DNA from: an uncultured Ruminococcus sp.
GTDB taxonomy: Bacteria; Bacillota; Clostridia; Oscillospirales; Acutalibacteraceae
Reading direction: 5' to 3'
Assembly: GCA_902768825.1 (NCBI GenBank)
Contig: CACXMR010000021.1
Span: forward strand, 1 to 48,340
Length of the DNA: 48,340 nucleotides
The notes below the pieces were generated by a model, which had not been told where the DNA came from, made no database searches, and worked only from the letters and a program-made list of their open reading frames with translations. Both the position numbers and the translations under genes were made by a program. Positions 3,373 to 35,919 of the stretch are shown one piece after another. Position 1 is the stretch's first letter, and every line of letters begins with the position of its first letter.

Positions 3373-4143
3373 TCAGGTGAGGGCTCCTTCCGGTTTGTCC
3401 GTCTCTTCAGAGTTGCTCGCAGTTTCGCCCGCGGGCTCCTCAGTCGATTGCTCAGGCTCACTCGGTCCTTCCTCAACAGCGCCCTGTTTGACACTGTCTT
3501 CGGTCGTGCCTCCTACAGCCTCCGCATCTGCCTTTTCGCCGGACTGGGTATCGTCGGCATCGGTTCCTGATCCGGATTTCTTGGTTTTATCCTCGTCATC
3601 CTCATCATTCTCCTTGCCCATAAGGAAGTAGCGCTTCAACAACAGGAAGAACGCACCAACCATGATGATGACCGGTACAATAAGATACCATCTTAATTGT
3701 ACAAACCTTACGACATAGCCAAGCCCCGGAATGCCAAAGGTAACCTTTCCGATAACCCTGCTGCTGTCGATAAGGAAGCTGTCGCCTACATCATTTGCGT
3801 CACCCTTTGTTCTGAAGCAGGTCACTCCCGTCCCTTCATAATTCTCAAGCTTCTCTGAAATACGGTGGGTCAGGTAGGCATCACTATCCTGAGATGGATT
3901 AAACGTGATGACGTCTCCGACGTTTAACTCTGATGCATCAGAGAGCTTTACAAAGATCATATCGCCGACTTTATAGGTCGGGGACATTGATCCTGTCAGT
4001 ACGGTGTAATACCTGTAACCGAACAATGCCTTATCAGGTGATGTGCTAAAGGAAAACAACAATGCTCCAAAGAGTATCGCTGCGGCCAGAAGGTATACAA
4101 ACACAGTAAACGCTATGTCAAACACCTTCGCACCGGCCGGCAT
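3373..4143 (-). CDS. SipW-like type I signal peptidase with long acidic tail
   Basis: This 256-aa membrane protein has an N-terminal transmembrane segment (about residues 8-30), then the catalytic Ser in TGSMSPTYKVGD, and then DAYLTHRI. The latter places His where bacterial LepB has Lys, the Ser-His arrangement of SipW and archaeal/ER signal peptidases. A TKGDAND box and IPGLGYV follow, then a second transmembrane segment (about 155-175). The last ~75 residues are Asp/Glu-rich and predicted disordered. It should cleave the SipW-dependent signals of neighbouring fibre subunits. Start choice: ATG 4143 has an AAGGAAG upstream, but the frame stays open further upstream with protein-like sequence (ISKSAKAKTKKEEKKN) behind a better AAAGGAG and no standard start codon. 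A non-AUG start or a sequence error there is possible. Confidence 0.87.
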   Translation of the reverse strand: MPAGAKVFDIAFTVFVYLLAAAILFGALLFSFSTSPDKALFGYRYYTVLTGSMSPTYKVGDMIFVKLSDASELNVGDVITFNPSQDSDAYLTHRISEKLENYEGTGVTCFRTKGDANDVGDSFLIDSSRVIGKVTFGIPGLGYVVRFVQLRWYLIVPVIIMVGAFFLLLKRYFLMGKENDEDDEDKTKKSGSGTDADDTQSGEKADAEAVGGTTEDSVKQGAVEEGPSEPEQSTEEPAGETASNSEETDKPEGALT

Positions 4144-17501: not shown

Positions 17502-18490
17502 TCATTCAACATTACTTTTTCTCTTTCTGTTGACTACAAAATACACACCCGCACAGAATAAGAATCCCACAAATATGAATGCCAACCAGGGTCTTGTATC
17601 ATTGGTTCCTGCTGCAGGCAAAATATAAGGAGCGAATTCATATTGATTAGTAAACACAAACTCAATATTCTTATCGTTGGGATCTATTATTTCTGCAGCG
17701 TTAAGAGAAAGAGCAGTATTTTTCTTTGTGTTTGCTTTTGGTGCGGCCTGAAGTTGAGCATCCTCATTATGGTTGATAGTGTAAGATGCGATATAGTCAG
17801 CACTTGCCTGTTCGGTTACATGGCATGTTGAATTATACGGCAGACCTTTCAGTCGGAAAGACTCATTGTGGTGCAGACTTATGATAAATGTCACTCTCTC
17901 AGCCGCTGTCTGTTCCCCTTCTGCTTCTGAAAGACTCATTACATCTGCCAGCGTCCTCTTGATCGGGTCGGAATTATTATCCTTGTTATATTCCACCATG
18001 ATCTCGTTGTACTTGAGGTTACCAAGTCCAGTCAATACGATTTCAAAATTGAAGCTCTGCTGTTTATATTCGCTTTCCAGCAGGTTGCCATAAGTCATGT
18101 CGATTTTCTTTGTAATCGTAATATCACAAGCCACCTTTCGGTTGGAAAAGACAACCTGTGGATCCTTATTAACCTGTATGGTGTGACTGCCTGTCGTTAG
18201 TGAGAGATCCGGCTTTGCATTTGCACCGTTGGCAACATTTGTCTGACCTTCCATGATCTGATATGAAGCTACATACTCGGATTCACTTTCGATAACTTCA
18301 TAGGATACTCCCACGGGAATGTCTTCGATTTCAAAGGACGTTCCTGAAGTGAGTAAGAACGATGCTGTCACCGCTCCGTCGTCCTCTGCGGTCAGTGCTC
18401 CTAAAGTGCTATGCAGAATGCATCCCGGCTTCAGACCGGTCAGATTGATCGTAAATTCAAACTGATCTGTGGTTCCTGCGGATACATCCT
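17502..18490 (-). pseudogene. 3' part of the giant adhesin, out of frame: SpaA-like domains and LPAAG cell-wall anchor
   Basis: This stretch continues the 2,925-aa adhesin after the 16-bp duplication. Its frame reads VSAGTTDQFEFTINLTGLKPG directly onto the upstream QKLTLQKILED if one repeat unit is removed. It holds two or three SpaA/DUF5979-like beta domains (for example ACDITITKKIDMTYGNLLES). Then come the sorting signal ILPAAGTND, a hydrophobic segment (LAFIFVGFLFCAGVYFVV) and the basic tail NRKRKSN, a complete sortase signal with Ala in place of Thr. The apparent GTG start at 18371 is inside the natural frame and has no ribosome binding site. Without restoration of frame, the adhesin ends early and would lack wall attachment. 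Confidence 0.85.
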
Positions 18491-21400
18491 CCAGTATCTT
18501 CTGCAGCCAGTATCTTCTGCAGCGTCAGCTTCTGACGGACATCCTTGACATTGGTAAAGACAACTGCCACCTTTTCTCCGGCATCCGCTGTTTCCGACTT
18601 GGTAGAAAGCGCTGTGTTTTCTTCCGTGTTATAGTCAGCACTTCGGTTTATGCGGTTCAAGCCTTCACTATCAGTAATCTGATAAGAGGCAGTATAAGCG
18701 CCTGCCAGCTCTGTAATGGTATAAGCTGTTTTTTCTGGTACTGTCAGCGTCAACTGCTCCTGATGTACCAACGTCAATTCCACAAACGCCACACCGTTAG
18801 AAGATGCAGAAAAGATCTTGTCCGGATTCTTTGTGCTGTGAATGGTATATGCGCCGTTAGCACGGAGATTTTCCAGGTAGATCGTGAAGCCAAAGGTCTC
18901 TCCCGGGTCGATCACATTACCTGTTACTATCTTTTGGATCGTGAAGGTAACATCATCTTCGGTTTCCTCATAATTCTTCTTGTTGGTGTACTGTACGGTC
19001 TGGGGTTGTTCGTCTGTAATGGTTCCTGTGGCAGCACCCTTAGTCACAGAGGCATCAAAGCCTTCCTCAGGAGTTTCAGTGACCTGATATTGATAGCCGT
19101 CGGGAATATCTTTGATCGTCATGGCATCATCATCACCGAGTCGGAAGCTTGCCTTGCCTGCATTAAAGACCATCATGTTCTCGGTTTCGGTGCCGTTGGA
19201 AGTCTTGACGGTATTCAGAACCATGCTGTCCGTCAGTGCCCCCCCTTGGCTGTCGGTCAGGGTCACGGTAAACAGGAATGTTCTGGACTTATCCGCATCG
19301 GTCAGCGTATCGGTGCCATCCTTGTTCAGCACATTCTTCTGCACGATCAGATCACCATAGGTGGGCGGGTCATCAGAGATATTTGTAATGGTGCCCACGC
19401 CGTTTTTCACCGTTAAGAAGTTTGTCTGACCCATGTTCAGCGAGGTATAACCCTCCATCTCATCCTCCCAGGCATAATACTGTACGGTGGGGTTCAATCC
19501 GGTAAAGGTATAGGTCCAGGTGGTGTCGTCCAGTTTCGTCAGCTGGCAATTTGTAGATGAAGAATTATAGATCTCCTCCACCATTCTGGCGGGGGCGTCC
19601 AGTTTTTTGTAGGTCAGGTAGCCGGGTGCATATGCGTTATCGATACGGGCATAGGCCTTATCGATATGGCTGCTGTCATAGTGGGTTCCGTTGCCGCCCA
19701 CAAGGGAAGTACAGCCTTGGAATAATCTCCAACTGCTGCTGACTTTATTTACGCTCCATAAAGCCGACACATATATGGTTTTGAGGTTTGTGCAGTTGGA
19801 AAACATTTCAGCCATATTGGATACTCGAGATGTATCCCATCCACTAAGGTCAGCAGTAATCAGATTGGAACAACCGTTAAACATATAACTCATGTTCGTG
19901 ACTCTTGATACATCCCAATCCTTCAAAGGCGTCAGATCACTTAACTGACTGCAGTAACTGAACATACGTGCCATGTCGATAACATTTGATACATTCCAAT
20001 CCTTCAAAGGAGTCAGATCACTCAACCGGCTGCAGCCAGAGAACATATCATATATGCTCATAACATTTGACACATTCCAATCTTTTAAAGGCGTCAGATC
20101 ACTCAACCGGCTGCAGCTAGAGAACATATCATACATGCTCGTAACATTTGACACATTCCAATCTTTTAAAGGCGTCAGATCACTTAACTGATAGCATTGA
20201 AAGAACATATAAGCCATAGATGTAACATTGGAGACATTCCAATCTTTTAAAGGCGTCAGGTCACTTAACTGTCTGCATCCAAAGAACATGGAACCCATGC
20301 TCGTAACATTTGATACATTCCAATCTTCCAAAGGAGTCAGATTACTTAACCGACTGCAATAATAGAACATGGCATCCATGCTCGTAACATTTGATACATT
20401 CCAGTCTTCCAAGCCCTCAATTGAAGTAAGATATTGACAATAATAGAACATGGAACCCATGCTCGTAATATTTGATACATTCCAGTCTTCCAAGCCCTCA
20501 ATTGAAGTAAGATATTGACAATAATAGAACATATAACTCATGTTCGTCATTCGGGACACATCAATGCCGGAAACATCAATGTAAGTACACGCCCTTAGAT
20601 TGCGCCATAACGCACCTTCAACCAGATATACGGTATCGGCATCTGACCACCAATAAAGTGTGCCATTGTCCATCCATCCATAAATTGAATAATCCGTTGT
20701 CCCATCATCCAGACGAACAGTTGTCGTATTGGCAATCACTTCTGCCGCATCGTCTCCAGTGTAATGTCTGAACTGCTTAATGCTGCCTGCAGAATCAACG
20801 GTAGTAAGAATACTGTCTGACGAATTGCTGACCCTTTTAAATACTGCGTAATCAACAGCAGGGATAGAAACAGGAGTTGTCTCCTTCTTTCTAAAATAGC
20901 CTGGGGTATCTTCTGTCCAGATGCGTGCATATGTTTTATCTGTTTTGGAGCTGTCAAAGGGAGTCGCTACGCCATCACTATTCAAAGAAGTACAGCCATT
21001 AAACATGTCTGAACTGCTGCTAACTTTTGATGTACTCCACAAATCTGAAACGTAAATACTCACTAACTGAGAACAATTGGAGAATAAATAAGTCATATTG
21101 GTAACGCTTGATGTGTCCCATCCACTAAGATCAGCAGTAGTGGCAGAACTACAACCACCGAACATATTTTGCATGTTAGTAACACTCGATACATCCCAGC
21201 CGCATAATGGACTTAGATTAGTCAACCGACTGCAACCATAGAACATTTGTAGCATGGTTGTGACATTAGAGACATCCCAATCTTTCAAAGGAGTCAGATC
21301 ACTTAACTGACTGCAACGAATGAACATACTTTGCATGTTAGTAACACTCGATACATCCCAGTCTTTCAATGGAGTCAAATCGGTAAGTCGGGAGCAATTA

Positions 21401-24400
21401 TAAAACATATAGCGCATGTTTCTAACAGTAGATACGTTCCAGTCTTTCAAAGGAGTCAGATCACTTATCTGACTGCAATAATAGAACATGCATTCCATGT
21501 TCGTAACATTTGATACATTCCAGCTTGCCAAAGAAGTCAGAGCACTTAACTGACTGCAATAATAGAACATGTATTCCATGTTCGTAACATTTGATAAATT
21601 CCAGCTTGCCAAAGAAGTGAGAGCACTTAACTGACTGCAATAATAGAACATATAACTCATGTCCACAACAGTAGATACATTCCAGCTTGCCAAAGAAGTC
21701 AGAGCATTCAGTTTTTGACAGTAAGAGAACATCTTACTCATGTTAATGACATTCGATACATCCCAGCCGCTTATTGGTGTCAGATCAGTTAGTTGACCAC
21801 ACCCTTCAAACATTCCGCTCATGTTCGTAACATTCGATACATTCCAGCCGCTTATAGGATTCAAATTCGTCAAACTTTTCCAGCCATAGAACATATTGCT
21901 CATGTCCGTGACGTTTGATACATTCCAGTCTTTCAGTGGGGTTAGATCACTTAACCGAATGCAACTACCAAACATATTGCTCATGTTCGTAACATTTGAA
22001 ACATCCCAGCCGCTTATTGGTGTCAGATTGGTTAGATTTCTCCACCCTGCAAACATTCCGCTCATGTTCGTAACATTTGAAACATCCCAGCCGCTTATTG
22101 GTGTCAGATTGGTTAGTTGACTACACCCCAAAAACATACCACTCATGTCCGTAACATTCGATACATTCCAGCCACTTATAGGTGTCAGATCAGTTAGTTG
22201 ACTACACCAGGTAAACATACTTATCATGTCCGTGACGTTTGATACAGTCCAATTGTCTAGGCCATCAAGCTTGGTTAATTGACAATAATAAAACATACAG
22301 CTCATGTTCGTGACGTTTGATACATTCCAATTCTGTAAAGGAGTCAGGTCGGTCAGTGCATAACAGCGATCGAACATACAGCTCATGTCCGTGACGTTTG
22401 ATACAGTCCAATTCTGTAAAGGAGTCAGATCAGTCAGTGCTTCACAGTAATGGAACATATCTCTCATGTCCCTGACGTTTGATACATTCCAATCAGCTAA
22501 AGGGTTCACAATTGTCAGTTTTTGACAGTAATAGAACATATAGCTCATGTCCGTGACGTTTGATACATTCCAATTCTGCAAAGGAGTCAGGTCAGTCAGA
22601 TTACTACAGAAATAGAATATATGGTTCATGTCCGTAACGTTTGATACATTCCAATCAGCTAAAGGGTTCACAATTGTCAGTTTTTGACAGTAATAGAACA
22701 TATAGCTCATGTCCGTAACTTTGGATACATCCCAGTCGTCCAGACCTGTTAAAGTAGTAAGGGATTGACAATTGTAGAACATATGGCTCATATCCGTCAG
22801 GAACGATATGTCGATATCCGAAACATCAATAGAAGTACAACTTGTCAGCCCATACCACAAATGGTGTCCTCGGTTATCCAAATAGACCTTATTCGCATCT
22901 GACCACCAATATACAGTGTTGTAGTCAAGCCATGCATAGATACCATAGGATGTGCTTCCATCGTCAATTCGAGTGGCAGTATTATCTGCGATCCTTGCTT
23001 TGGCAGTTGTTTCATCACCCGGAGCAAATTTTCTTACAGAGTATACACCGAATTTATTGCCCAAAATAGATTGATCTTGATAACTGTTAAAAAACGCCAC
23101 CGGTGCATCCTGTTCCACGCCCAGATGAATAAACGGATTGGCTTTTCTGGTGTCGTTGTTATACTTGTCTTCCCACTTCTTAGTGATGATTACGGTGCTG
23201 TTGTCCTCATTCTTGATGATGAAGTAGCCAAGGCTGTTTTTCTGCACACCGTCAATGGTGATAATATCATCATCGGTAATGGTGACAACTCGCCGAGTGG
23301 GATCAAGCGTGTATCCGTCCGGTGCAGAATCCTCATAAAGAATATAGGTGCCAGCCTCCAGATCGTCAAAAGACGCACGGCCGTTAGTTTCGGTGGTTTT
23401 TGTAATGTTGACCACCGTACCGTAATCAGAGGTACCCGAAAGGTTAAACACCGCGCCGCCTACCGGAAGGGCGATACCGTCTACTTCAAAGGTTCCTTCC
23501 TTTTGAATAGTAAAGGAATGCAGGGGTTCATTATAGACGGTCAGGGTACCGTCCATTTCCATGTAGCTGTCACTGATGGCAAAGTTAGCGTTTTCGTCTA
23601 CACGCACATCAAAAACAGTTTCGTTGAGGATATAACCCGGTATTGTTTCCGTCTCTCTCATCGTGTAGTTGCCGTATTCGATATTTGCGAAGGTGACAAT
23701 ACCGTTCTCGTTAGATACCGCATCCTCCGAAATCATATTGCCATAGTTAGACTTGCCCTCCAGATGGAATTTTACACCGGCAAGAACCTTATACTTATTT
23801 CGGAGATCCTTCTTGTTAAAAGAAATATCCGTATGAATACGAGGCGGATCATCAATCACAAATTTATCTCCGACAGCTGTGCCGTCCACTGTGACTTTAC
23901 CTTCGTTATCAACGATAACATCCATGATACCGTCAATTTTGAGATAATCCGGTGAACCCTTATATTCCGTCAGCTTGTAGGTACCTTTTTCAATATCCTT
24001 AAATGTCAAGCCGCCCTGATTATCCGATTCCAGAATGCTGTCAATCTGCGTCCCATAGTCGGATGTACCTGCAAGACGGAAGTAAATACCTTCTACCGGT
24101 GTGGTGTGATCCTTGGCATTGACCTTGAGAATAGGCAAATCACCCATAATGCGCAGTTCTGCCATATCATAGCCCCAGTAATTCAGTCTGTCATCATAAT
24201 ACTCTTCTGTAAAAGCACTGACGAGACGACCGGCCACTTTGATATCATTATGTGTCCGAGGAGCTACTTGTCCTTCCGGCAAGGTCACCCCCGGATCGGA
24301 TGAAGGCGATTTCATATAGATATAGGCAATTACCGAATCATTGGTATTCAGGACATAATCGTTGCCGCTGGCATCTTTTCGCAAATCAATGGCCACTGCC

Positions 24401-27234
24401 CTTGCTCTGGTAATATCCCCAAAGTCGTCCAGTGTTTGCCATACGGAAGTATCCTCCAGATTGATATCTGTCAGAGAGTTAATAACTACCGGCTGAGCAG
24501 ACAGATAAACAACCGGTGCAATTCCCTTTTCGATAAGATCAGACACATCCACGGCCTGAAGGGTACCTTGCCACTGATTGCTGATCCCTTCGTCGGGATT
24601 GGTAAACTGCTCAAGATTGTCGATAAAAATCATATCCGTAGCCTTGGTAACGAAATTGGTAGCGTAACGCAGGCAATAGGAATAGATTTGATTCTGTCGG
24701 ACAGTCGTTTCCCTGCTGTAGCTTTCGTCATAATAAGATTTGACTTTCTTATTCAGTCCTGTATTGACAGCTAACAGGAAATCCATCATACGGGTATGTT
24801 CCGCATACAGGAACTTATTGGCATCCGTATCCGGGTCGAGATTCGACAGCAGTGCCGCATCATTGATTGTTCCGCCATCGTCGGGATAACCACCTGCGAT
24901 GGTGCTGTTGCCTGTTTCATAAGCAACGGAATTGCGGGCATAAACGCTATAGTCAAATATACTTTCCCAAGAATGTACCGTTGAGTAAGACAAGGTATAT
25001 CCTGAATCGGTTCGCTGCTTGATTCTCACAACCAAAAGCGTTCTTCCGGAATTTTGATAATTCGGTATTTTTGATACGTCCAGTTGTGATTCTCTCAGCT
25101 TAGTGTTTCCGGCAGAAACCGTTACAGATGAAAGCTTGATATCGGCACCCTCCGGAAGCAAATCATAAAAGGCACCTGTTTCCTGAGGAATATATACCCT
25201 GTCATCCTGTGTCTGATAGCTTTCGGAAATATTCACCTGCCAGCCAACGGTCACCATTTTTTTGATTTTATTATTGGAGAAAAAGGTTGAGGTTTTGTTA
25301 ATTGAAGATTCTTTCTCATAGCCAATAATATAATTCCTGGCGTATTCGTTCTTCGTGAAGATACAATTGTCTTCGGATATGTTCTCACGATCACTACTAT
25401 AGATGGACGTATTTGCTCGGTTGGTAAGCCACACCCGCTTTTCGCCTTGACCAAAAGCAGTTTCAATCAGGCGGTCAATACGTTCGGAGTGCTTGATCTT
25501 ACAATAGGGATAAGCATTGAGTCTCGTGTAATAAAACGCATTGGAGGTAACGATCTTATAGCCCGTACACCCTGCATCTTTCTTGAAAACAATTGATGTA
25601 TATGTCAAAGAAGCTACCTTATCACTCAACAGCTCCCCTACGCCGGTCTTCAGGTGAAAAACGCCAGCCGGTTGCCATCCCGTATCCTCTTTGAATTTGG
25701 CATAGAAATAAATGGCATCATCATTTGAATAAACAGGTGAACGGGTGATGAACTTTAGCTCACTGGTACTCCAATCGGCATCGCTTGCCGAATAATCATA
25801 GTTTACCTTGGTGATTTCATAGTCATGATAATCGAGCTGCTCCGTACCCTCTGGCGTATCATAAGCAGTAACCAAGTCATAGAAGAAAAATTCATCATCG
25901 GTAATAACATAGGTTACCGGATTAACACCATAATGGTCTACATCCGAAGAGTGATATCCATTTTCGATTGTCCAGGGATATGCATAGCCAACAATATCCA
26001 GACGGTAGTCTATATTCTGGGAGATTTCCTCGATCTCATTGTTTCTGAATTCGCCTAACTGATAATTAACAACCTCGGAGTTATAATAATATCGATAATG
26101 ATTATATTTCCAAAAGTTGAAATGACCAATTGGATAATCAGGCTGTGGCGCAGAATAAGTATAAACAGCAGAATCTGAACCTCTTGAATCCGGATCAACC
26201 TTATCTTTTGGACAAACAGTGACATCCACTCTATTATTTATCCTATAGGTTTCCAAAGGTTCATATGTCGCTTTCAGATGTTTTGTCAGAACCTTAGAAT
26301 AAATGTAGCCAGATGTTGTTCTTTCAGGAGATACGAGATTAGTCGTATACGCTGAAGAACCATCCCAACTCACACCAACAAACTCTGCATTACCATTCTC
26401 TCCGGTGACAGTATCTTGCAAGGAGAGAGTATATGGCTGTGTAGCACTAACATTGGTCCTAACATCCCAGACAAGATAATAATAATCATCAGGAGTGTCA
26501 ATGCCAAAATCAGACGGGTTTCCCCAGCTGCTGTTCCAACCTATCGGAGAACCCATTGAGATACTTTTGGATGTGCTATTAAGCCTGGCATAAGTATCGA
26601 TAGTAAGCCCCGGAGCAGTATCCTGTGTATAAAGATGTTCATGTACATTTTTATTGATATTAATCCTTGAAACCACTTCTTCAGATACGGACATATCCCG
26701 ATACTCAAAAGGAGATTCAGTAGTGGTATAGCTGAACTGAATGGAACCACTGTCAGCAGCGGATATTTTCAGACGATTGTAAATCAGGATATCATTTTCC
26801 CGTTCAACATACACGAAGTCGTTTTCCTTATCATCGACATCCGCCTCAGAGGCTTCAGGAACAGCAACCTCATAGCGATCGGCATCATTTCCGGCCCGAT
26901 CCTTGAAGATATGCTTTGGGATGGTGATCTGTACTGTTTCCGCTGCCAAATCACCGGATCCCGAAAGGGTATAATCGACCTGATAACGGAATTCCGAGCC
27001 GGAAACGGATGGTGTAAAAATGTACAAGGGATTATCGATAGTGCCCTGATTGGTAATGCCTGAAATCAGACTGACAGAAAAGTCATTGATTTCCTGGGTT
27101 GACGTCTGAACTACGCTCTCCGGTTCCTCTGCATTAGTCTGAATAGAAAATAACGGGGTAAATATAGACAGAATGATCATAAAGATCAGTGCCATGGAAG
27201 TTGTTTTCTGGAAGCTTTTGTTCAACCTGATCAT
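18457..27234 (-). CDS. Giant pilus-associated adhesin with SpaA-like domains and two BspA/DUF285 repeat arrays, frameshifted near its 3' end
   Basis: This 2,925-aa secreted protein has signal peptide MIRLNKSFQKTTSMAL..TNA. A long N-terminal adhesin region (about 40-1020) is followed by three SpaA/Cna-B-type domains (about 1030-1330; TPVEGIYFRLAGTSDYG and relatives). Two arrays of BspA-like (DUF285) 26-27-residue repeats follow, about 21 units (residues ~1470-2060) and about 9 units (~2225-2505), each with the core MFYYC..L..LDWNVSNVTDM. More SpaA-like domains come after ~2620. BspA repeats mediate binding to host matrix and other bacteria in known members. It sits between the minor pilin (4-bp overlap) and the class C sortase, the place of a tip adhesin. 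Frame is lost after LTLQKILAAEDTGG at a 16-bp duplication; the natural end is at 17502. Confidence 0.9.
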   Translation of the reverse strand: MIRLNKSFQKTTSMALIFMIILSIFTPLFSIQTNAEEPESVVQTSTQEINDFSVSLISGITNQGTIDNPLYIFTPSVSGSEFRYQVDYTLSGSGDLAAETVQITIPKHIFKDRAGNDADRYEVAVPEASEADVDDKENDFVYVERENDILIYNRLKISAADSGSIQFSYTTTESPFEYRDMSVSEEVVSRININKNVHEHLYTQDTAPGLTIDTYARLNSTSKSISMGSPIGWNSSWGNPSDFGIDTPDDYYYLVWDVRTNVSATQPYTLSLQDTVTGENGNAEFVGVSWDGSSAYTTNLVSPERTTSGYIYSKVLTKHLKATYEPLETYRINNRVDVTVCPKDKVDPDSRGSDSAVYTYSAPQPDYPIGHFNFWKYNHYRYYYNSEVVNYQLGEFRNNEIEEISQNIDYRLDIVGYAYPWTIENGYHSSDVDHYGVNPVTYVITDDEFFFYDLVTAYDTPEGTEQLDYHDYEITKVNYDYSASDADWSTSELKFITRSPVYSNDDAIYFYAKFKEDTGWQPAGVFHLKTGVGELLSDKVASLTYTSIVFKKDAGCTGYKIVTSNAFYYTRLNAYPYCKIKHSERIDRLIETAFGQGEKRVWLTNRANTSIYSSDRENISEDNCIFTKNEYARNYIIGYEKESSINKTSTFFSNNKIKKMVTVGWQVNISESYQTQDDRVYIPQETGAFYDLLPEGADIKLSSVTVSAGNTKLRESQLDVSKIPNYQNSGRTLLVVRIKQRTDSGYTLSYSTVHSWESIFDYSVYARNSVAYETGNSTIAGGYPDDGGTINDAALLSNLDPDTDANKFLYAEHTRMMDFLLAVNTGLNKKVKSYYDESYSRETTVRQNQIYSYCLRYATNFVTKATDMIFIDNLEQFTNPDEGISNQWQGTLQAVDVSDLIEKGIAPVVYLSAQPVVINSLTDINLEDTSVWQTLDDFGDITRARAVAIDLRKDASGNDYVLNTNDSVIAYIYMKSPSSDPGVTLPEGQVAPRTHNDIKVAGRLVSAFTEEYYDDRLNYWGYDMAELRIMGDLPILKVNAKDHTTPVEGIYFRLAGTSDYGTQIDSILESDNQGGLTFKDIEKGTYKLTEYKGSPDYLKIDGIMDVIVDNEGKVTVDGTAVGDKFVIDDPPRIHTDISFNKKDLRNKYKVLAGVKFHLEGKSNYGNMISEDAVSNENGIVTFANIEYGNYTMRETETIPGYILNETVFDVRVDENANFAISDSYMEMDGTLTVYNEPLHSFTIQKEGTFEVDGIALPVGGAVFNLSGTSDYGTVVNITKTTETNGRASFDDLEAGTYILYEDSAPDGYTLDPTRRVVTITDDDIITIDGVQKNSLGYFIIKNEDNSTVIITKKWEDKYNNDTRKANPFIHLGVEQDAPVAFFNSYQDQSILGNKFGVYSVRKFAPGDETTAKARIADNTATRIDDGSTSYGIYAWLDYNTVYWWSDANKVYLDNRGHHLWYGLTSCTSIDVSDIDISFLTDMSHMFYNCQSLTTLTGLDDWDVSKVTDMSYMFYYCQKLTIVNPLADWNVSNVTDMNHIFYFCSNLTDLTPLQNWNVSNVTDMSYMFYYCQKLTIVNPLADWNVSNVRDMRDMFHYCEALTDLTPLQNWTVSNVTDMSCMFDRCYALTDLTPLQNWNVSNVTNMSCMFYYCQLTKLDGLDNWTVSNVTDMISMFTWCSQLTDLTPISGWNVSNVTDMSGMFLGCSQLTNLTPISGWDVSNVTNMSGMFAGWRNLTNLTPISGWDVSNVTNMSNMFGSCIRLSDLTPLKDWNVSNVTDMSNMFYGWKSLTNLNPISGWNVSNVTNMSGMFEGCGQLTDLTPISGWDVSNVINMSKMFSYCQKLNALTSLASWNVSTVVDMSYMFYYCSQLSALTSLASWNLSNVTNMEYMFYYCSQLSALTSLASWNVSNVTNMECMFYYCSQISDLTPLKDWNVSTVRNMRYMFYNCSRLTDLTPLKDWDVSSVTNMQSMFIRCSQLSDLTPLKDWDVSNVTTMLQMFYGCSRLTNLSPLCGWDVSSVTNMQNMFGGCSSATTADLSGWDTSSVTNMTYLFSNCSQLVSIYVSDLWSTSKVSSSSDMFNGCTSLNSDGVATPFDSSKTDKTYARIWTEDTPGYFRKKETTPVSIPAVDYAVFKRVSNSSDSILTTVDSAGSIKQFRHYTGDDAAEVIANTTTVRLDDGTTDYSIYGWMDNGTLYWWSDADTVYLVEGALWRNLRACTYIDVSGIDVSRMTNMSYMFYYCQYLTSIEGLEDWNVSNITSMGSMFYYCQYLTSIEGLEDWNVSNVTSMDAMFYYCSRLSNLTPLEDWNVSNVTSMGSMFFGCRQLSDLTPLKDWNVSNVTSMAYMFFQCYQLSDLTPLKDWNVSNVTSMYDMFSSCSRLSDLTPLKDWNVSNVMSIYDMFSGCSRLSDLTPLKDWNVSNVIDMARMFSYCSQLSDLTPLKDWDVSRVTNMSYMFNGCSNLITADLSGWDTSRVSNMAEMFSNCTNLKTIYVSALWSVNKVSSSWRLFQGCTSLVGGNGTHYDSSHIDKAYARIDNAYAPGYLTYKKLDAPARMVEEIYNSSSTNCQLTKLDDTTWTYTFTGLNPTVQYYAWEDEMEGYTSLNMGQTNFLTVKNGVGTITNISDDPPTYGDLIVQKNVLNKDGTDTLTDADKSRTFLFTVTLTDSQGGALTDSMVLNTVKTSNGTETENMMVFNAGKASFRLGDDDAMTIKDIPDGYQYQVTETPEEGFDASVTKGAATGTITDEQPQTVQYTNKKNYEETEDDVTFTIQKIVTGNVIDPGETFGFTIYLENLRANGAYTIHSTKNPDKIFSASSNGVAFVELTLVHQEQLTLTVPEKTAYTITELAGAYTASYQITDSEGLNRINRSADYNTEENTALSTKSETADAGEKVAVVFTNVKDVRQKLTLQKILAAEDTGGCIRRNHRSV
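18491..18522 (-). repeat. Perfect 16-bp tandem duplication causing the adhesin frameshift
   Basis: CCAGTATCTTCTGCAG occurs twice back to back (18491-18506 and 18507-18522, plus-strand reading). Sixteen is not a multiple of three; with one copy, the minus-strand frame runs on from QKILED to the LPAAG anchor. Confidence 0.95.
19720..20560 (-). repeat. Second BspA/DUF285 repeat array inside the adhesin (about 9 units)
   Basis: Units of about 81 bp encode variants of MF..C..LSDLTPLKDWNVSNVTSM. Units between about 19970 and 20215 are nearly identical at DNA level, suggesting recent expansion or gene conversion. This is coding sequence, not CRISPR. Confidence 0.88.
21040..22810 (-). repeat. First BspA/DUF285 repeat array inside the adhesin (about 21 units)
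   Basis: Units of 78-81 bp encode MFYYCQKLTIVNPLADWNVS and variants. Consecutive units fall into subtypes (LTPISGW, LTSLASW, LTPLKDW, LTPLQNW), with like subtypes clustered, a sign of growth by local duplication. Confidence 0.88.
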
Positions 27235-30700: not shown

Positions 30701-30729
30701 TTGAATAATATTGTCAATGCTGTTATAAT
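30701..30729 (+). promoter_or_regulatory. Promoter of the Y RNA-like gene
   Basis: TTGAAT (30701-30706) and TATAAT (30724-30729) are 17 bp apart; start near 30736. Confidence 0.75.
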
Positions 30730-30770
30730 GTTCAGACTCAAATAGTGTCTGCAAACCGTGTTTAAAGATC

Positions 30771-30810
30771 ATCGGGAAATGCGGCAAACCTTTGTCGTGG
30801 CTTTCCCGAT
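30771..30810 (+). other. Perfect hairpin in the 5' part of the Y RNA transcript
   Basis: ATCGGGAAA (30771-30779) pairs fully with TTTCCCGAT (30802-30810), and an inner CGGCAAA/TTTGTCG stem extends it. It lacks a T run, so it is not a terminator. It lies between the predicted start site and the Y RNA core. Confidence 0.6.
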
Positions 30811-30820
30811 ACTATCCGGT

Positions 30821-30976
30821 AATTCCATGCAGCAGTGCAGATAACGGATACTTCGATTTGGGATCGGCAGGTCGCAGGGTTTGATTCCCTGCCCCGCAGG
30901 GAGCTTGCTCTCCGGGTAGCTCAGAGCTCAGAGTGGCCGATATTTGTTCCGTTATCGACTTTTCTCTGCATGAATT
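30821..30976 (+). ncRNA. Y RNA-like (YrlA-type) non-coding RNA with a permuted tRNA-like module
   Basis: A terminal stem pairs GATAACGGA (30840-30848) with TCCGTTATC (30948-30956), extended outward by AATTC(C)ATGCAG (30821-30832) with CTGCATGAATT (30966-30976). At its tip is a circularly permuted tRNA fold. Anticodon-stem-like ATCGGC (30863-30868) pairs with GCCGAT (30936-30941). A five-base AGGTC variable-loop-like linker follows, then a T-arm with loop TTTGATT (30874-30892). An acceptor-like hairpin CCC..GGG closes at 30893-30916, then TA in the place of U8-A9, and a D-arm GCTC..GAGT (30919-30934). YrlA RNAs bind bacterial Ro proteins and mimic tRNA in this way. The Ro gene starts 73 nt downstream. 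The conserved Ro-binding stem bases of other YrlA RNAs were not clearly found, and the D-loop lacks GG. Confidence 0.85.
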
Positions 30977-30978
30977 AT

Positions 30979-31018
30979 ATGACTGTCGGGTGTTTACATT
31001 CGGCAGTCATTGTTTTAC
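30979..31018 (+). terminator. Terminator or attenuator between the Y RNA and the Ro gene
   Basis: ATGACTGTCG (30979-30988) pairs with CGGCAGTCAT (31001-31010, one G-T pair), followed by TGTTTT. Read-through would transcribe the TROVE gene. Confidence 0.65.
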
Positions 31019-31049: not shown

Positions 31050-32537
31050 ATGTCGAAATTTAACAAGCCGGGAACTAACCAAACCACCAACCGCTGTGAT
31101 TATCCCGCTTACTTCATGACAAGAAAGGAAGAGCTGCTTACAGCCGTTCTGACCACTATGTTCGGTGAGCCTAAGCACTACGGCAGTACTGACTGTGATC
31201 TGATTTCCCTTGCCATCATTACAGCTTCAGAAGACCCGGAATTCCTGTGCAGGCTTGCCTGCTATGCAAGAAATGTCGGCAATATGCGTTCCGTCAGCCA
31301 TGTGCTTACCGCAATAATAGCCCGATATGCCCATGAATACACCCGTGTCACCGTCAGAAACACCGTTAACCGTCCCGATGACATCACAGAGATACTTTCC
31401 TGCTATCTTTCACTTTTCGGCAAACCCCTCCCCAACGCTCTGAAACGTGAAACCGCCGCAGTGATACAAAGCTTCGATGAGTATTCACTGGCTAAATATA
31501 ATAACCAAAACAAACCCATGAAGCTTCGTGATGTGCTCAGACTTACCCACCCTAACCCTGCTTCAAAAGAAAAGGAAGAGCTTTTCCGCCGACTGCTGGA
31601 CAATAACCTGAATACTCCCTACACCTGGGAAACGGAGCTTTCCGCCAAGGGCAACACCTGCGAGGTCTGGAACCAGCTCATTGCTTCCGGCAAGGTCGGA
31701 TATATGGCACTGCTGAGAAACCTTGCAAATATTCTCAAAAGCGGCGCTGACATCACTCCGGTGCTGAAAAAGCTCTCTGACCCCCAAGAGGTAAAAAACA
31801 GCCGTCAGCTTCCCTTCCGGTTTTATAGCGCTTACCGCACACTCAAAAGCGGCAATCTGATGACACCAGAGGTTCACGAGGCCCTGGAAACCGCTCTTCG
31901 TGTCTCAATAGACAACATGGAGCACATTCCCGGCCGCACCCTTATCGCCGTGGATTGCTCCGGCTCCATGTGCGATACGATTTCACGCAGAGGCACCATA
32001 AGGTGTTGTGATATCGGCACTCTCTTTGGCGCCATGGCAAGCTATATCTGTGATGATTCCACCGTATGCTACTTTGACAGTGAAAGCTGCAGTATGTTCA
32101 AAGGAAAACAAAAGGGCTATCTGATTGCCCGCTATGAAAAGAGTGAATCTATTCTTGACATCTGTGATAAAAACTCGGCGGCAGGCGGAAATACGGACCT
32201 TTCGTTGCCCATGAGATACGCTCTGAAAAGGGACCCCTTGCGTGAAACCAGACCCTTTGACCGGGTAATCTATTTCAGCGACAACCAGTGCAACAGCTTT
32301 AAGCACGGGCATTATGGTATTATCGCCAACAAATTCGCAGAAGAGTACCGTGATCGTTACAACAGTGATTTCTGGGTGCATGGCGTAGATATGCAAGGCT
32401 ATGGTACACAGCAGTTCATTGGACCTAGAACAAACCTGATTGCCGGCTGGGGTGAAAGCGTACTTTACTTTATTATGCTTGCAGAAAAAGGCATTGGTAC
32501 CGTTGCAAAAACCATCTCGGAATATCCTATAGTATAA
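31050..32537 (+). CDS. rsr: TROVE-domain Ro60-like RNA-binding protein
   Basis: This 495-aa protein is the bacterial counterpart of Ro60, a ring of helical HEAT-like repeats with a von Willebrand A domain. It binds Y RNA and misfolded RNA ends and, in other bacteria, works with RNA-degrading enzymes such as PNPase. The TROVE part spans about residues 10-280 (RKEELLTAVLTTMFGEPKHYG; ISLAIITASEDPEFLCRLA). The vWA domain starts at RTLIAVDCSGSMCDT with an intact DxSxS metal site, followed by TDLSLPMRYALK and VIYFSDNQCN. Start ATG 31050 follows GGAGAGAGAGG. It sits directly behind a Y RNA-like gene, the standard arrangement for an Ro ribonucleoprotein. No RNA ligase or nuclease gene is adjacent; a terminator follows. 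Confidence 0.95.
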   Translation: MSKFNKPGTNQTTNRCDYPAYFMTRKEELLTAVLTTMFGEPKHYGSTDCDLISLAIITASEDPEFLCRLACYARNVGNMRSVSHVLTAIIARYAHEYTRVTVRNTVNRPDDITEILSCYLSLFGKPLPNALKRETAAVIQSFDEYSLAKYNNQNKPMKLRDVLRLTHPNPASKEKEELFRRLLDNNLNTPYTWETELSAKGNTCEVWNQLIASGKVGYMALLRNLANILKSGADITPVLKKLSDPQEVKNSRQLPFRFYSAYRTLKSGNLMTPEVHEALETALRVSIDNMEHIPGRTLIAVDCSGSMCDTISRRGTIRCCDIGTLFGAMASYICDDSTVCYFDSESCSMFKGKQKGYLIARYEKSESILDICDKNSAAGGNTDLSLPMRYALKRDPLRETRPFDRVIYFSDNQCNSFKHGHYGIIANKFAEEYRDRYNSDFWVHGVDMQGYGTQQFIGPRTNLIAGWGESVLYFIMLAEKGIGTVAKTISEYPIV

Positions 32538-34623: not shown

Positions 34624-34762
34624 AAAAAGCAGAAAGAGAACGCTTTGCGCCTGCGGCAGATCCGGCACGGTACTTATCAGGGCTTCGCAGGCAGCCGTAC
34701 CGTGTACGATCCAGTATATCCAAGAATTTTCTTGGATTTAACGATTTCTCTTTCTGTTTTTT
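34624..34762 (+). ncRNA. Inverted-repeat-bounded RNA region upstream of the reverse transcriptase, retron-like layout
   Basis: AAAAAGCAGAAAGAGAA (34624-34640) pairs over 17 positions (one G-U) with 34746-34762. Between the arms, CACGGTAC (34666-34673) pairs with GTACCGTG (34697-34704), and TCCAAGAA/TTCTTGGA forms a hairpin (34719-34736). GCCTGCG (34649-34655) can pair with CGCAGGC (34686-34692) in a crossing manner. In retrons the msr-msd RNA is framed by such a1/a2 arms just before the RT gene. The T-rich right arm could also act as a terminator. Confidence 0.45.
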
Positions 34763-34794: not shown

Positions 34795-35919
34795 ATGTCA
34801 CTGTTGGATTTGCTGTCCGAGGAGAGTATATGGATAAGCTTTTATGATTACAAGACCTCGCTGATAAGCCATTCCGGTTTTGAAAAGGAGCTCAGGAGGT
34901 TTATTATCAGTAAAAGCTACCTGCCTGTTTGCAACAGGATTAGAAACGGTGAGGCTTTTCCCCTGCCGGAAAGAAAAGTGATAAACAAAAACAGCTACAA
35001 AAAAAAGCGTGTTGTTTACACCTATCCTCAAAACGAAAACATGGTTGACCCACCTGATCCTCAGGAAATATGACAGTTTGTTTTGCAATAATCTTTATTC
35101 CTTCAGGCCCTCAAGGAACGCTAAGGATGCGGTGCGGAGATTCGTGACTGATCCCGGCATTAAAAGCTCGTTTTTTTACAAGTCGGACATTAGCAACTAT
35201 TTCAATTCTGTGCCCATACAACGTCTGACGCCAATGCTGAAGGATGTACTTTTTGACGACCCGGAGCTATGCGGCTTCCTCTGCGGTTTGCTTGAGGAGA
35301 ATTGTGTAACCGAAAGGGGTTCTGTTATTGATGACAGGAAGGGCATTATGGCACCTATGCAAGATACTCTGACGACATAATTGTCTTTGCGGGTGAACAA
35401 AATCAAGTCGAGACCTATGCCGATCATATAAAAGAAACCCTGAGAGAGATGGGTTTATGCATGAACCCTGACAAGGAACTCTATGGCAGACCTGAGGACG
35501 GATGGACGTTTTTGGGTTTTTCAAGCCAAGGTGAGGTCATTGACATTTCACCTGTCACGGTGGGCAAGATCAAAGCAAAGATGCGCCGCAAGACAAGGGC
35601 GCTCAGGCGTTGGCAGACGAGAAACGGGCTTTCCGGTGAGAACTCTGCCTCTGCCTTCATCAGGATATTCAACAAAAAGCTGCTGGACAGTCCGGTGGAC
35701 AACGAGCTGTCGTGGAGCTGCTGGTTTTTCCCCGTTATCAACACGGTGGACAGCCTGAGGGACATCGACCACTATGCTCAGGATTGCATCCGCTACCTTG
35801 TCAGCGGCAAGCGAACTAAATCGAGGTATAATGTGCGGTACAACGACATGAAGCGGCTCGGCTACAAAAATCTCGTCCATGAGTATTACAGCTTTAATGG
35901 TTCCAGCGACAATACATAA
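34795..35919 (+). pseudogene. Decayed reverse transcriptase (RNA-directed DNA polymerase)
   Basis: RT motifs are spread over three frames. ATG 34795 (MSLLDLLSEESIWISFYDY..KKKRVVYTYPQNENMV) shifts near 35045 to LILRKYDSLFCNNLYSFRPSRNAKDA, which holds motif A, FFYKSDISNYFNSV. At 35350-35365 the GIMA that should lead into the GxPxS motif instead joins directly to YARYSDDIIVFA, the YxDD catalytic box. This indicates a frameshift plus an internal deletion of motif B. The rest (FLGFSSQGEVIDIS, then a basic thumb and SWSCWFFPVINTVDSLRDIDHY) is intact to 35919. It is not a typical group II intron protein: no maturase or HNH domain is seen. It could be a retron or an unknown-group defence RT; it is presumably inactive here. 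Confidence 0.85.

Follow-up and report, generated by a model that had tools for sequence, protein, structure and literature searches.

What kind of RNA lies directly in front of the Ro60 homologue of an uncultured Ruminococcus sp., and what might RNA and protein do together? The window, by which we mean the whole stretch of 48,340 nucleotides that was analyzed, encodes at 30824-30974 a small RNA in which a permuted tRNA head is carried on a two-helix end stem, P1 and P2, with an internal loop between the helices (Table 1). A sequence-only reading had seen here a Y RNA with a permuted tRNA mimic beside a Ro60 gene, and sequence tests on relatives support it: the small RNA with its mimic in front of the gene is confirmed. 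We consider it very probable that this is a YrlA-type Y RNA that forms an RNP with the Ro60 encoded 75 nt downstream, with the stem docking on the protein and the head recruiting partners. Ro60 binding, the partners of the head, processing, and function are what we infer for the window RNA.

From 5' to 3', the head consists of the 3' half of an anticodon-type stem, the variable region, the T-arm, a closed acceptor hairpin, a UA linker, the D-arm, and the 5' half of the anticodon-type stem. Every part named in the earlier reading, the arms and linkers of the mimic as well as the end stem, was found where it had been placed.

Table 1. Positions of the Y RNA, its parts, and its neighbors in the window
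Feature	Position	Strand	Evidence or remark
Promoter-like site, TTGAAT-17-TATAAT	30701..30729	+	Consensus scan, 10 of 12, TG before -10
Extra 5' hairpin between promoter-like site and Y RNA	30771..30810	+	Predicted fold; outside R1 match
Y RNA (YrlA-like), full R1 extent	30824..30974	+	R1, model positions 1-139 of 139; 100.3 bits, not independent, as this RNA is one of the 18 sequences used to build R1
P1, 5' strand	30826..30835	+	Pairs with 30964-30972; alignment and covariation
P2, 5' strand	30840..30848	+	Pairs with 30948-30956; both-side changes in 8 of 8 modeled P2 pairs, 57 RNAs
Conserved loop motif ATACTTCG at P2 tip (relatives mostly TTACTTCG)	30848..30855	+	Two positions are the same in all 57 RNAs
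Anticodon-type stem, 3' half, ATCGGC	30863..30868	+	Pairs with 30936-30941
Variable region AGGTC	30869..30873	+	C30873 is position 48; the 15-48 pair is G-C in the window
T-arm, loop TTTGATT	30874..30892	+	U replaces C at position 56; alignment
Closed acceptor-type hairpin	30893..30916	+	Predicted fold and alignment
U-A linker	30917..30918	+	Between acceptor hairpin and D-arm
D-arm, loop AGAGCTCA, no GG	30919..30934	+	From alignment; single-sequence fold favors a shorter hairpin
Anticodon-type stem, 5' half, GCCGAT	30936..30941	+	Pairs with 30863-30868
P2, 3' strand	30948..30956	+	Alignment and covariation
P1, 3' strand	30964..30972	+	Alignment and covariation
Intrinsic terminator-like hairpin with T-rich tail	30979..31018 (hairpin 30979-31010)	+	Scan; conserved in L007
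Ro60/Rsr homologue, 495 aa, TROVE and vWA	31050..32537	+	Pfam; metal-site residues; AlphaFold2 model

The protein matches Pfam TROVE (E 2.2e-33, 116.5 bits against a cut-off of 23) and vWA_Ro60 (E 3.3e-7, 30.8 bits against a cut-off of 27.7). Residues D302, S304, S306, T382, and D411, which we take to be the Ro60 metal site, are invariant across 17 aligned Ro60 proteins, the window's included, and the proposal of a TROVE gene with an intact metal site beside the RNA holds. All 13 PDB fold matches of the AlphaFold2 model (mean pLDDT 81.8, pTM 0.72) at E ≤ 0.001 are Ro60/TROVE entries. The Rsr structure of Deinococcus radiodurans matches the window protein with E 0.029 by sequence and 4e-12 by fold, and the phage-encoded Ro60 of Thermus phage phiLo (PDB 9l5y) is among the closest solved folds. 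PHROGs placed the protein in an RNA-binding family, adding nothing beyond Pfam, and a known defense family was rejected, with PADLOC reporting 0 families. In the Ro60 tree the window protein pairs with that of a sister locus, L007 (support 99/95; columns were trimmed, N-termini being too long through an upstream ATG start in L004, L007, L010, L012, L017, and L018 and the L127 protein being short).

The RNA had been credited with a promoter and a terminator of its own. A promoter-like site and a terminator-like hairpin were indeed found, and both are kept in L007, where the promoter-like site has the same spacing and nearly the same hexamers. The extra 5' hairpin, by contrast with its proposed standing as a class trait, drew no support from relatives; it has no clear counterpart in L007 and no R1 match.

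No Rfam family is reported at the RNA site at gathering thresholds. A permissive scan (551 nt, 4227 families) places YrlA (RF02553) end to end over 30841-30958 with 20 bits and E 0.12, which is the support for the window RNA that is independent of our own model R1. The curated YrlA model thus points to the site, as had been hoped, but the score is far under the gathering threshold of 69 bits. Across 64 genomes of the genus, RF02553 gave 0 matches above the cut-off (best 50.1 bits), and it stayed below threshold at every locus scanned. The matches listed above 31.5 bits are those to the RNAs adjacent to Ro60, of which the best has 50.1 bits, and a single match elsewhere, at G018:C7 (39.0 bits). 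In the whole-genome search, the window RNA is absent among the matches listed, and 21.6 bits are reached at a different place of its genome. Taken alone, the curated model therefore leaves the window RNA at background, and the identity of this RNA rests on the relatives that score up to 50 bits. In the alignment, the window RNA and its relatives have a permuted head of T-arm, closed acceptor, and D-arm, and the long end stem typical of bacterial Y RNAs is kept by pairing, as covariation indicates. Judged by sequence, the RNA is YrlA-type in anatomy but falls outside the curated family RF02553. A tRNA gene at 30824-30974 was rejected, none being called by ARAGORN or the Rfam tRNA model.

Predicted folds recover the main stems of the window RNA. 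A fold of 283 nt has a z-score of -4.25 (equaled by 0 of 200 shuffles), and folds of 171 and 150 nt have z-scores of -1.90 (11 of 200) and -2.00 (8 of 200), respectively; the minimum-energy fold has a shorter competing hairpin instead of the D-arm. Energy alone is weak for the core of the RNA; the structure was settled by covariation in relatives, which also rejects a chance fold.

The search for Ro60 covered 149 related genomes, among them that of the window itself, and gave matches in 23: 13 genomes have the window type (44-100% identity to the window Ro60) and 10 only a distant type (28-31%). The genomes of the relatives are partly incomplete. Named contigs of uncultured Clostridiales/Ruminococcus supplied five more relatives, with upstream DNA present in four. 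Upstream of window-type Ro60 genes, RNAs with a common stem motif recur in the DNA. An alignment of 18 of these RNAs gave 31 pairs, 18 of which change on both sides, and was the source of the covariance model R1. When the 149 genomes were searched with R1, all 13 with a window-type Ro60 had a match on the Ro60 contig. The matches listed at 47 bits or more number 37, and each spans the whole of R1; 36 of them are found on the Ro60 contigs of those 13 genomes, and the remaining one (G061:C51) lies on a non-Ro60 contig of one of these genomes.

Ordinary tRNA genes that stand side by side yield weak matches to both R1 and RF02553. Away from Ro60, the two models give many matches that score about 20-35 bits, often to positions 32-113 of R1 or 27-81 of RF02553, and at L064, L066, and L124 most of these overlap tRNA genes. 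Our counts of RNA rows were therefore limited to whole-model matches with E 2e-4 or better next to Ro60, and L124 was scored as a miss. At L064:1380-1891 (G017:C38), neighboring ordinary tRNA genes with weak R1 matches read T-arm, acceptor, acceptor, D-arm, like the permuted head. A tandem tRNA pair could, as an idea, be the origin of permuted heads.

When 57 RNAs were aligned to R1, 96.5% of the cells in pairing columns were paired, compared with 41-55% for slid partners; 27 of 31 pairs changed on both sides, which 0 of 500 shuffles matched. Because this alignment is fitted to R1 and includes its 18 sequences, the count was repeated on 24 RNAs that had no part in building R1 and were taken from further Bacillota and from viral contigs. 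In this second alignment, likewise fitted to R1, 94.4% of the cells were paired (44-50% for slid partners) and 29 of 31 pairs changed on both sides (0 of 500 shuffles). These counts are uncorrected for relatedness, and as the loci are related, numbers of sequences are not numbers of events. The covariation anticipated for P2 is present at every modeled pair. That anticipated for the anticodon-type stem stands in part. Heads were counted if they had a 7-nt T-loop and a 6-11-nt D-loop, which set aside 10 of the 57 and 8 of the 24 RNAs; in tRNA register, with five of five pairs, the stem recurs with different letters in 18 of 47 (shuffle mean 4.1, maximum 10) but is not general outside the model, occurring in 2 of 16 usable RNAs, a number reached by 163 of 1000 shuffles.

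Do the heads preserve more of tRNA than its stems? The Levitt pair 15-48 is A-U (33) or G-C (12) in 45 of the 47 heads, against a shuffle mean of 28 and a largest value of 39 in one run and 37 in another. Among the 16 usable RNAs outside the model, 13 have A-U or G-C at this pair and two more have U-A, one of these two being an RNA whose D-arm is not convincing. This covariation indicates that the heads are held to the core fold of tRNA beyond its stems. At the elbow, whose pairs in tRNA are described in PMC4810234, 39 of the 47 heads combine a GG-containing D-loop with a TTC T-loop. In the window head the GG-less D-loop goes with the changed T-loop position 56: with U56 and loss of GG, both sides have changed and no evident pair is left. 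Five other heads replace TTC by TGCAAAT or TGCAAGT. All five have an AGT in the D-loop; in four the register is clear, with AGT standing for GGT, and in the fifth (L062:3022) it is uncertain. In our own reading, it is as if A18-G55 had replaced G18-U55 in the four. Three of the five, in the rows of related genomes, may represent one event. The RNA at L142:928-1062 (T-loop TTTAATT, D-loop ATTGATA) is consistent with A19-U56 in place of G19-C56, and two heads, L014:3220 and L016:1078, depart from the pattern in having TTC but no GG. The suggestion that the window RNA belongs to a variant class stands insofar as the RNA is distant from curated YrlA and its relatives form tandem rows; loss of GG, however, is a trait of this copy. 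As for the isotype mimicked by class I heads, the comparison was mixed, and a clear answer came only for seven tRNA-Leu-like heads.

At the 17 window-type Ro60 loci, R1 finds 61 RNAs. At least two stand at 14 of these loci and at least four at 10, with a maximum of seven (L061). The longer L061 and L062 represent L008 and L009; outside the count are L006 (no upstream DNA), L029 (a duplicate of L009), L066, and L063 (a row at a contig end, with no Ro60 on the stretch). Within rows, 34 of 44 gaps between neighbors are 25 nt or shorter. Such gaps leave little room for separate promoters, and one precursor is therefore likely; a consensus scan of one row locus, L004, gave no plus-strand promoter-like site at all, which is also a point against our main reading. 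In 79 pairs of RNAs from the same locus (15 loci), the stem core is 76% identical and the head 35%, with gaps counted as differences.

What varies along a row is the head. The first RNA in all seven rows of L012-L018 has a host tRNA-Leu as its best match, with scores of 25-31 in a comparison with the 44 tRNAs of G017 only, where real tRNA-Leu species score 18-26 against their best other tRNA. Each of these rows also holds, by eye, one copy with only a hairpin and a T-arm, and headless copies lie inside rows at L005:3890 and L003:254. The L009 row also contains, upstream of the full Ro60, part of a second TROVE gene (L009:1912-2262), which covers the N-terminal 110 residues at 56% identity. At L063:1-427 (G061:C51), a second Y RNA row with degenerate or absent heads runs to a contig end in a genome that also has a row at Ro60.

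The window stands at the sparse end of this family. Its RNA and that of L007 are 95% identical in the stem core and 7% in the head, with gaps again counted as differences; the L007 RNA has no recognizable tRNA mimic, whereas the window RNA keeps a mimic with a changed elbow. Few of the intact heads are less like tRNA than that of the window, in which position 56 and the D-loop GG have both changed; together with the mimic-less sister RNA, this suggests that the window head may be decaying. What is new here is the tandem rows with like stems and diverse heads, and the window RNA is a single-copy, reduced member of such a row family. No description of tandem rows of bacterial Y RNAs was found in the literature searched, a set that excluded the primary YrlA papers and is not proof of absence.

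Beyond the genus, TROVE is rare: it was found in 1 of 394 genomes in a sample of the order and in 10 of 398 in a sample of the phylum, the window's own genome being counted in both. Eight of the nine other TROVE loci are preceded by an R1 match no more than about 0.6 kb away, and L129 has a second, weak one; at L124 the R1 match is a tRNA cluster, so no Y RNA was counted. None of the nine reaches the YrlA threshold.

Rows also adjoin Ro60 on three viral contigs. G871 (182 kb) has eight full-length R1 matches in front of Ro60 and a further one at the opposite end of the contig, and it carries, by eye, ribonucleotide reductase and ThyX-like genes; G872 has five matches, and G873 has three, its Ro60 gene being cut by the contig end. 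In the tree, the Ro60 proteins of G871 and G872 stand beside those of L012-L018 with weak support, and the long phage branches were flagged by the tree tool. Four phage records were examined among 425 with a TROVE match. Six R1 matches lie around Ro60 in Arthrobacter phage Atuin, two before the gene and four after; Rhizobium phage RHph_TM30 has four and phage csAssE-Sib three, all before Ro60 (E 2.5e-5 or better in all three phages). These three records carry no Y RNA annotation, and that of csAssE-Sib labels two of the RNAs as tRNA genes. The crass-like phage PhiCrAssBcn24 gave no convincing match (best R1 score 12.9 bits). In IMG/VR, Ro60 peptide patterns had no match, and an RNA pattern hit 16 contigs, three with R1 matches. 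In Listeria phage P100 the R1 matches are partial, at most 23.6 bits. Its relative CKA15 is described in PMC12282133 as having very abundant, strongly transcribed RNAs upstream of an Rsr-like gene; as the P100 matches are only partial, these RNAs cannot be claimed for the present class. Upstream of gp165 in P100 (L163:28165-28430), three short tandem stem-loops with ACAGCAAWTACTA are seen by eye before a DUF2828/DUF7788 gene, with no R1 match.

Some phage RNAs attach the stem to tRNA at other points. In the usual arrangement the stem takes the place of the anticodon loop. On G871, the RNA at L142:1753-1894 (z -3.48) has its head permuted elsewhere, with an acceptor-type hairpin, a D-arm, a complete anticodon arm, and a T-arm, so that the stem enters at the junction of T-arm and acceptor; L142:163-295 has the same topology and a weak fold (z -1.27). 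In csAssE-Sib, the RNAs at L159:3635-3771 and 3782-3917, annotated as tRNA-Tyr and tRNA-Lys, join the Y stem to the acceptor end of an unpermuted tRNA-like cloverleaf, which the single-sequence fold recovers in the first only.

How might the window RNA work with Ro60? In known Y RNAs, the stem binds Ro60/Rsr and the head can tether PNPase and is modified by TruB and DusA (PMC8394870, PMC4726728, PMC7790460). We borrow the most likely mechanism from the RYPER of D. radiodurans, which like the present locus combines a Ro60 homologue with a Y RNA and in addition contains PNPase (PMC4726728). The P1-internal loop-P2 stem with its TACTTC loop would dock on Ro60; the permuted head would project from the protein, mimic tRNA, and recruit or occupy tRNA-binding partners, and it would thereby steer the Ro60 ring in its choice of RNAs. 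In related genomes, several Y RNAs per Ro60, probably cut from one precursor, would offer exchangeable heads for one ring, and the window's lineage would have one RNA per Ro60. YrlA shares with these RNAs an end stem with internal loops, a permuted head of T-arm, closed acceptor hairpin, and D-arm, and, in known cases, a gene beside that of Ro60 (PMC8394870). The present RNAs differ from it in score (the window RNA has 20 bits and the best in the genus 50.1, where the gathering score is 69), in the conserved stem sequence CAGCAGTGCAG / TACTTC / TTCTCTG, and in the relatives' rows of up to seven, in which some heads are absent, class II, or of another topology. Salmonella likewise has more than one Y RNA gene beside Ro60, but the two RNAs of its rsr-yrlBA-rtcBA operon are encoded together with RtcB/RtcA (PMC7790460), whereas no RtcB lies beside Ro60 here. 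RtcB was not found in the window's genome (G000), so a role in RNA repair does not apply there; it is present in 9 of the 13 genomes, on contigs other than that of Ro60. An RNA repair operon (rsr-yrl-rtcBA) was accordingly rejected, as RtcB is not with Ro60 in any of the 13.

The alternative that survives best, unlikely as we judge it, is that rows of tRNA mimics are decoys that soak up tRNA-binding or tRNA-cutting enzymes, for example in phage-host conflict, with Ro60 merely stabilizing them. Rows do occur in some phages, amid annotated tRNA genes in two of the three named ones, and the leading RNA mimics tRNA-Leu in all seven related rows, but the Ro60 stem replaces the anticodon loop in the usual topology, so that the head is no bait for anticodon nucleases. 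The headless copies in the same rows also argue against decoys, and PMC7790460 mentions competitive inhibition by YrlA as no more than a possibility. We give very little credence to a second alternative, in which the RNA is a T-box or attenuator-like cis-acting leader that regulates the Ro60 gene. In its favor, the gene follows directly on the RNA, a terminator-like hairpin separating the two, and about 40 nt is left for a separate Ro60 promoter. Against this, Rfam scans of the window hold no T-box, riboswitch, or other known cis-element family, a candidate that was rejected on that ground, and the scan of L004 gave no plus-strand terminator between the last RNA and the gene. At 14 of the 17 loci the distance from the end of the last RNA to the gene is 21-78 nt, four of the six Atuin matches follow the gene, and the head is free to vary or vanish. 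Least credible of all is a functionless, decayed tRNA-like remnant retained only through adjacency to Ro60: the window head has lost GG and C56 and the sister RNA has no recognizable mimic, but a stem core kept at 95% while the head diverges to 7%, together with stems that covary across loci, suggests that the RNA, or at least its stem, is under selection.

Returning to the Y RNA that docks on Ro60, we entertain, as a tentative extension that may well prove wrong, a machine of one ring and many heads in bacteria and phages. A shared docking stem, grafted onto tRNA at three points, would carry heads of class I, class II tRNA-Leu type, T-arm only, or none, and the rows would move between phage and host as exchangeable adaptors or as decoys. 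Rows that keep the stem and vary the head (full, partial, class II, absent) are a ready-made experiment on the role of the head with the same Ro60.

The distant Ro60 type of the same genus (about 550 aa; L019-L030) has short RNAs of its own upstream in 10 of 11 loci examined. These RNAs (ATACCGTAGCGG...TTCACGGTAT; for example L030:709-953 and L028:3074-3264) span 72-145 nt by pattern and have no tRNA head; they form a tandem pair in two loci, and by eye another gene stands between RNA and Ro60 in four. Rfam at gathering thresholds gave no match for them. Because the RNAs of both types have a common frame of stem, internal loop, and TATTC.C 3' motif, comparison of the two suggests a class of Y RNAs whose constant part is the stem that docks on Ro60.

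Three further observations may be recorded. At L066:2614-2754 (G018:C7), a YrlA-like RNA (R1 37.4 bits, RF02553 39.0 bits) lies near a gene for a 764-aa protein of the phage family phrog_33734, and G018 has no match to the window's Ro60; the site is possibly a prophage with another Ro-like partner. In the window itself, an RT-5 RNA (94.6 bits) at 34645-34749 adjoins a short reverse transcriptase-like frame at 35009-35380 (RVT_1 24.5 bits, cut-off 29.6). Finally, the product of 18457-27234 is a surface-type protein of 2925 aa in which 'DWNVSNVT.M' units are repeated many times, and the next two genes encode SpaA-type domains.
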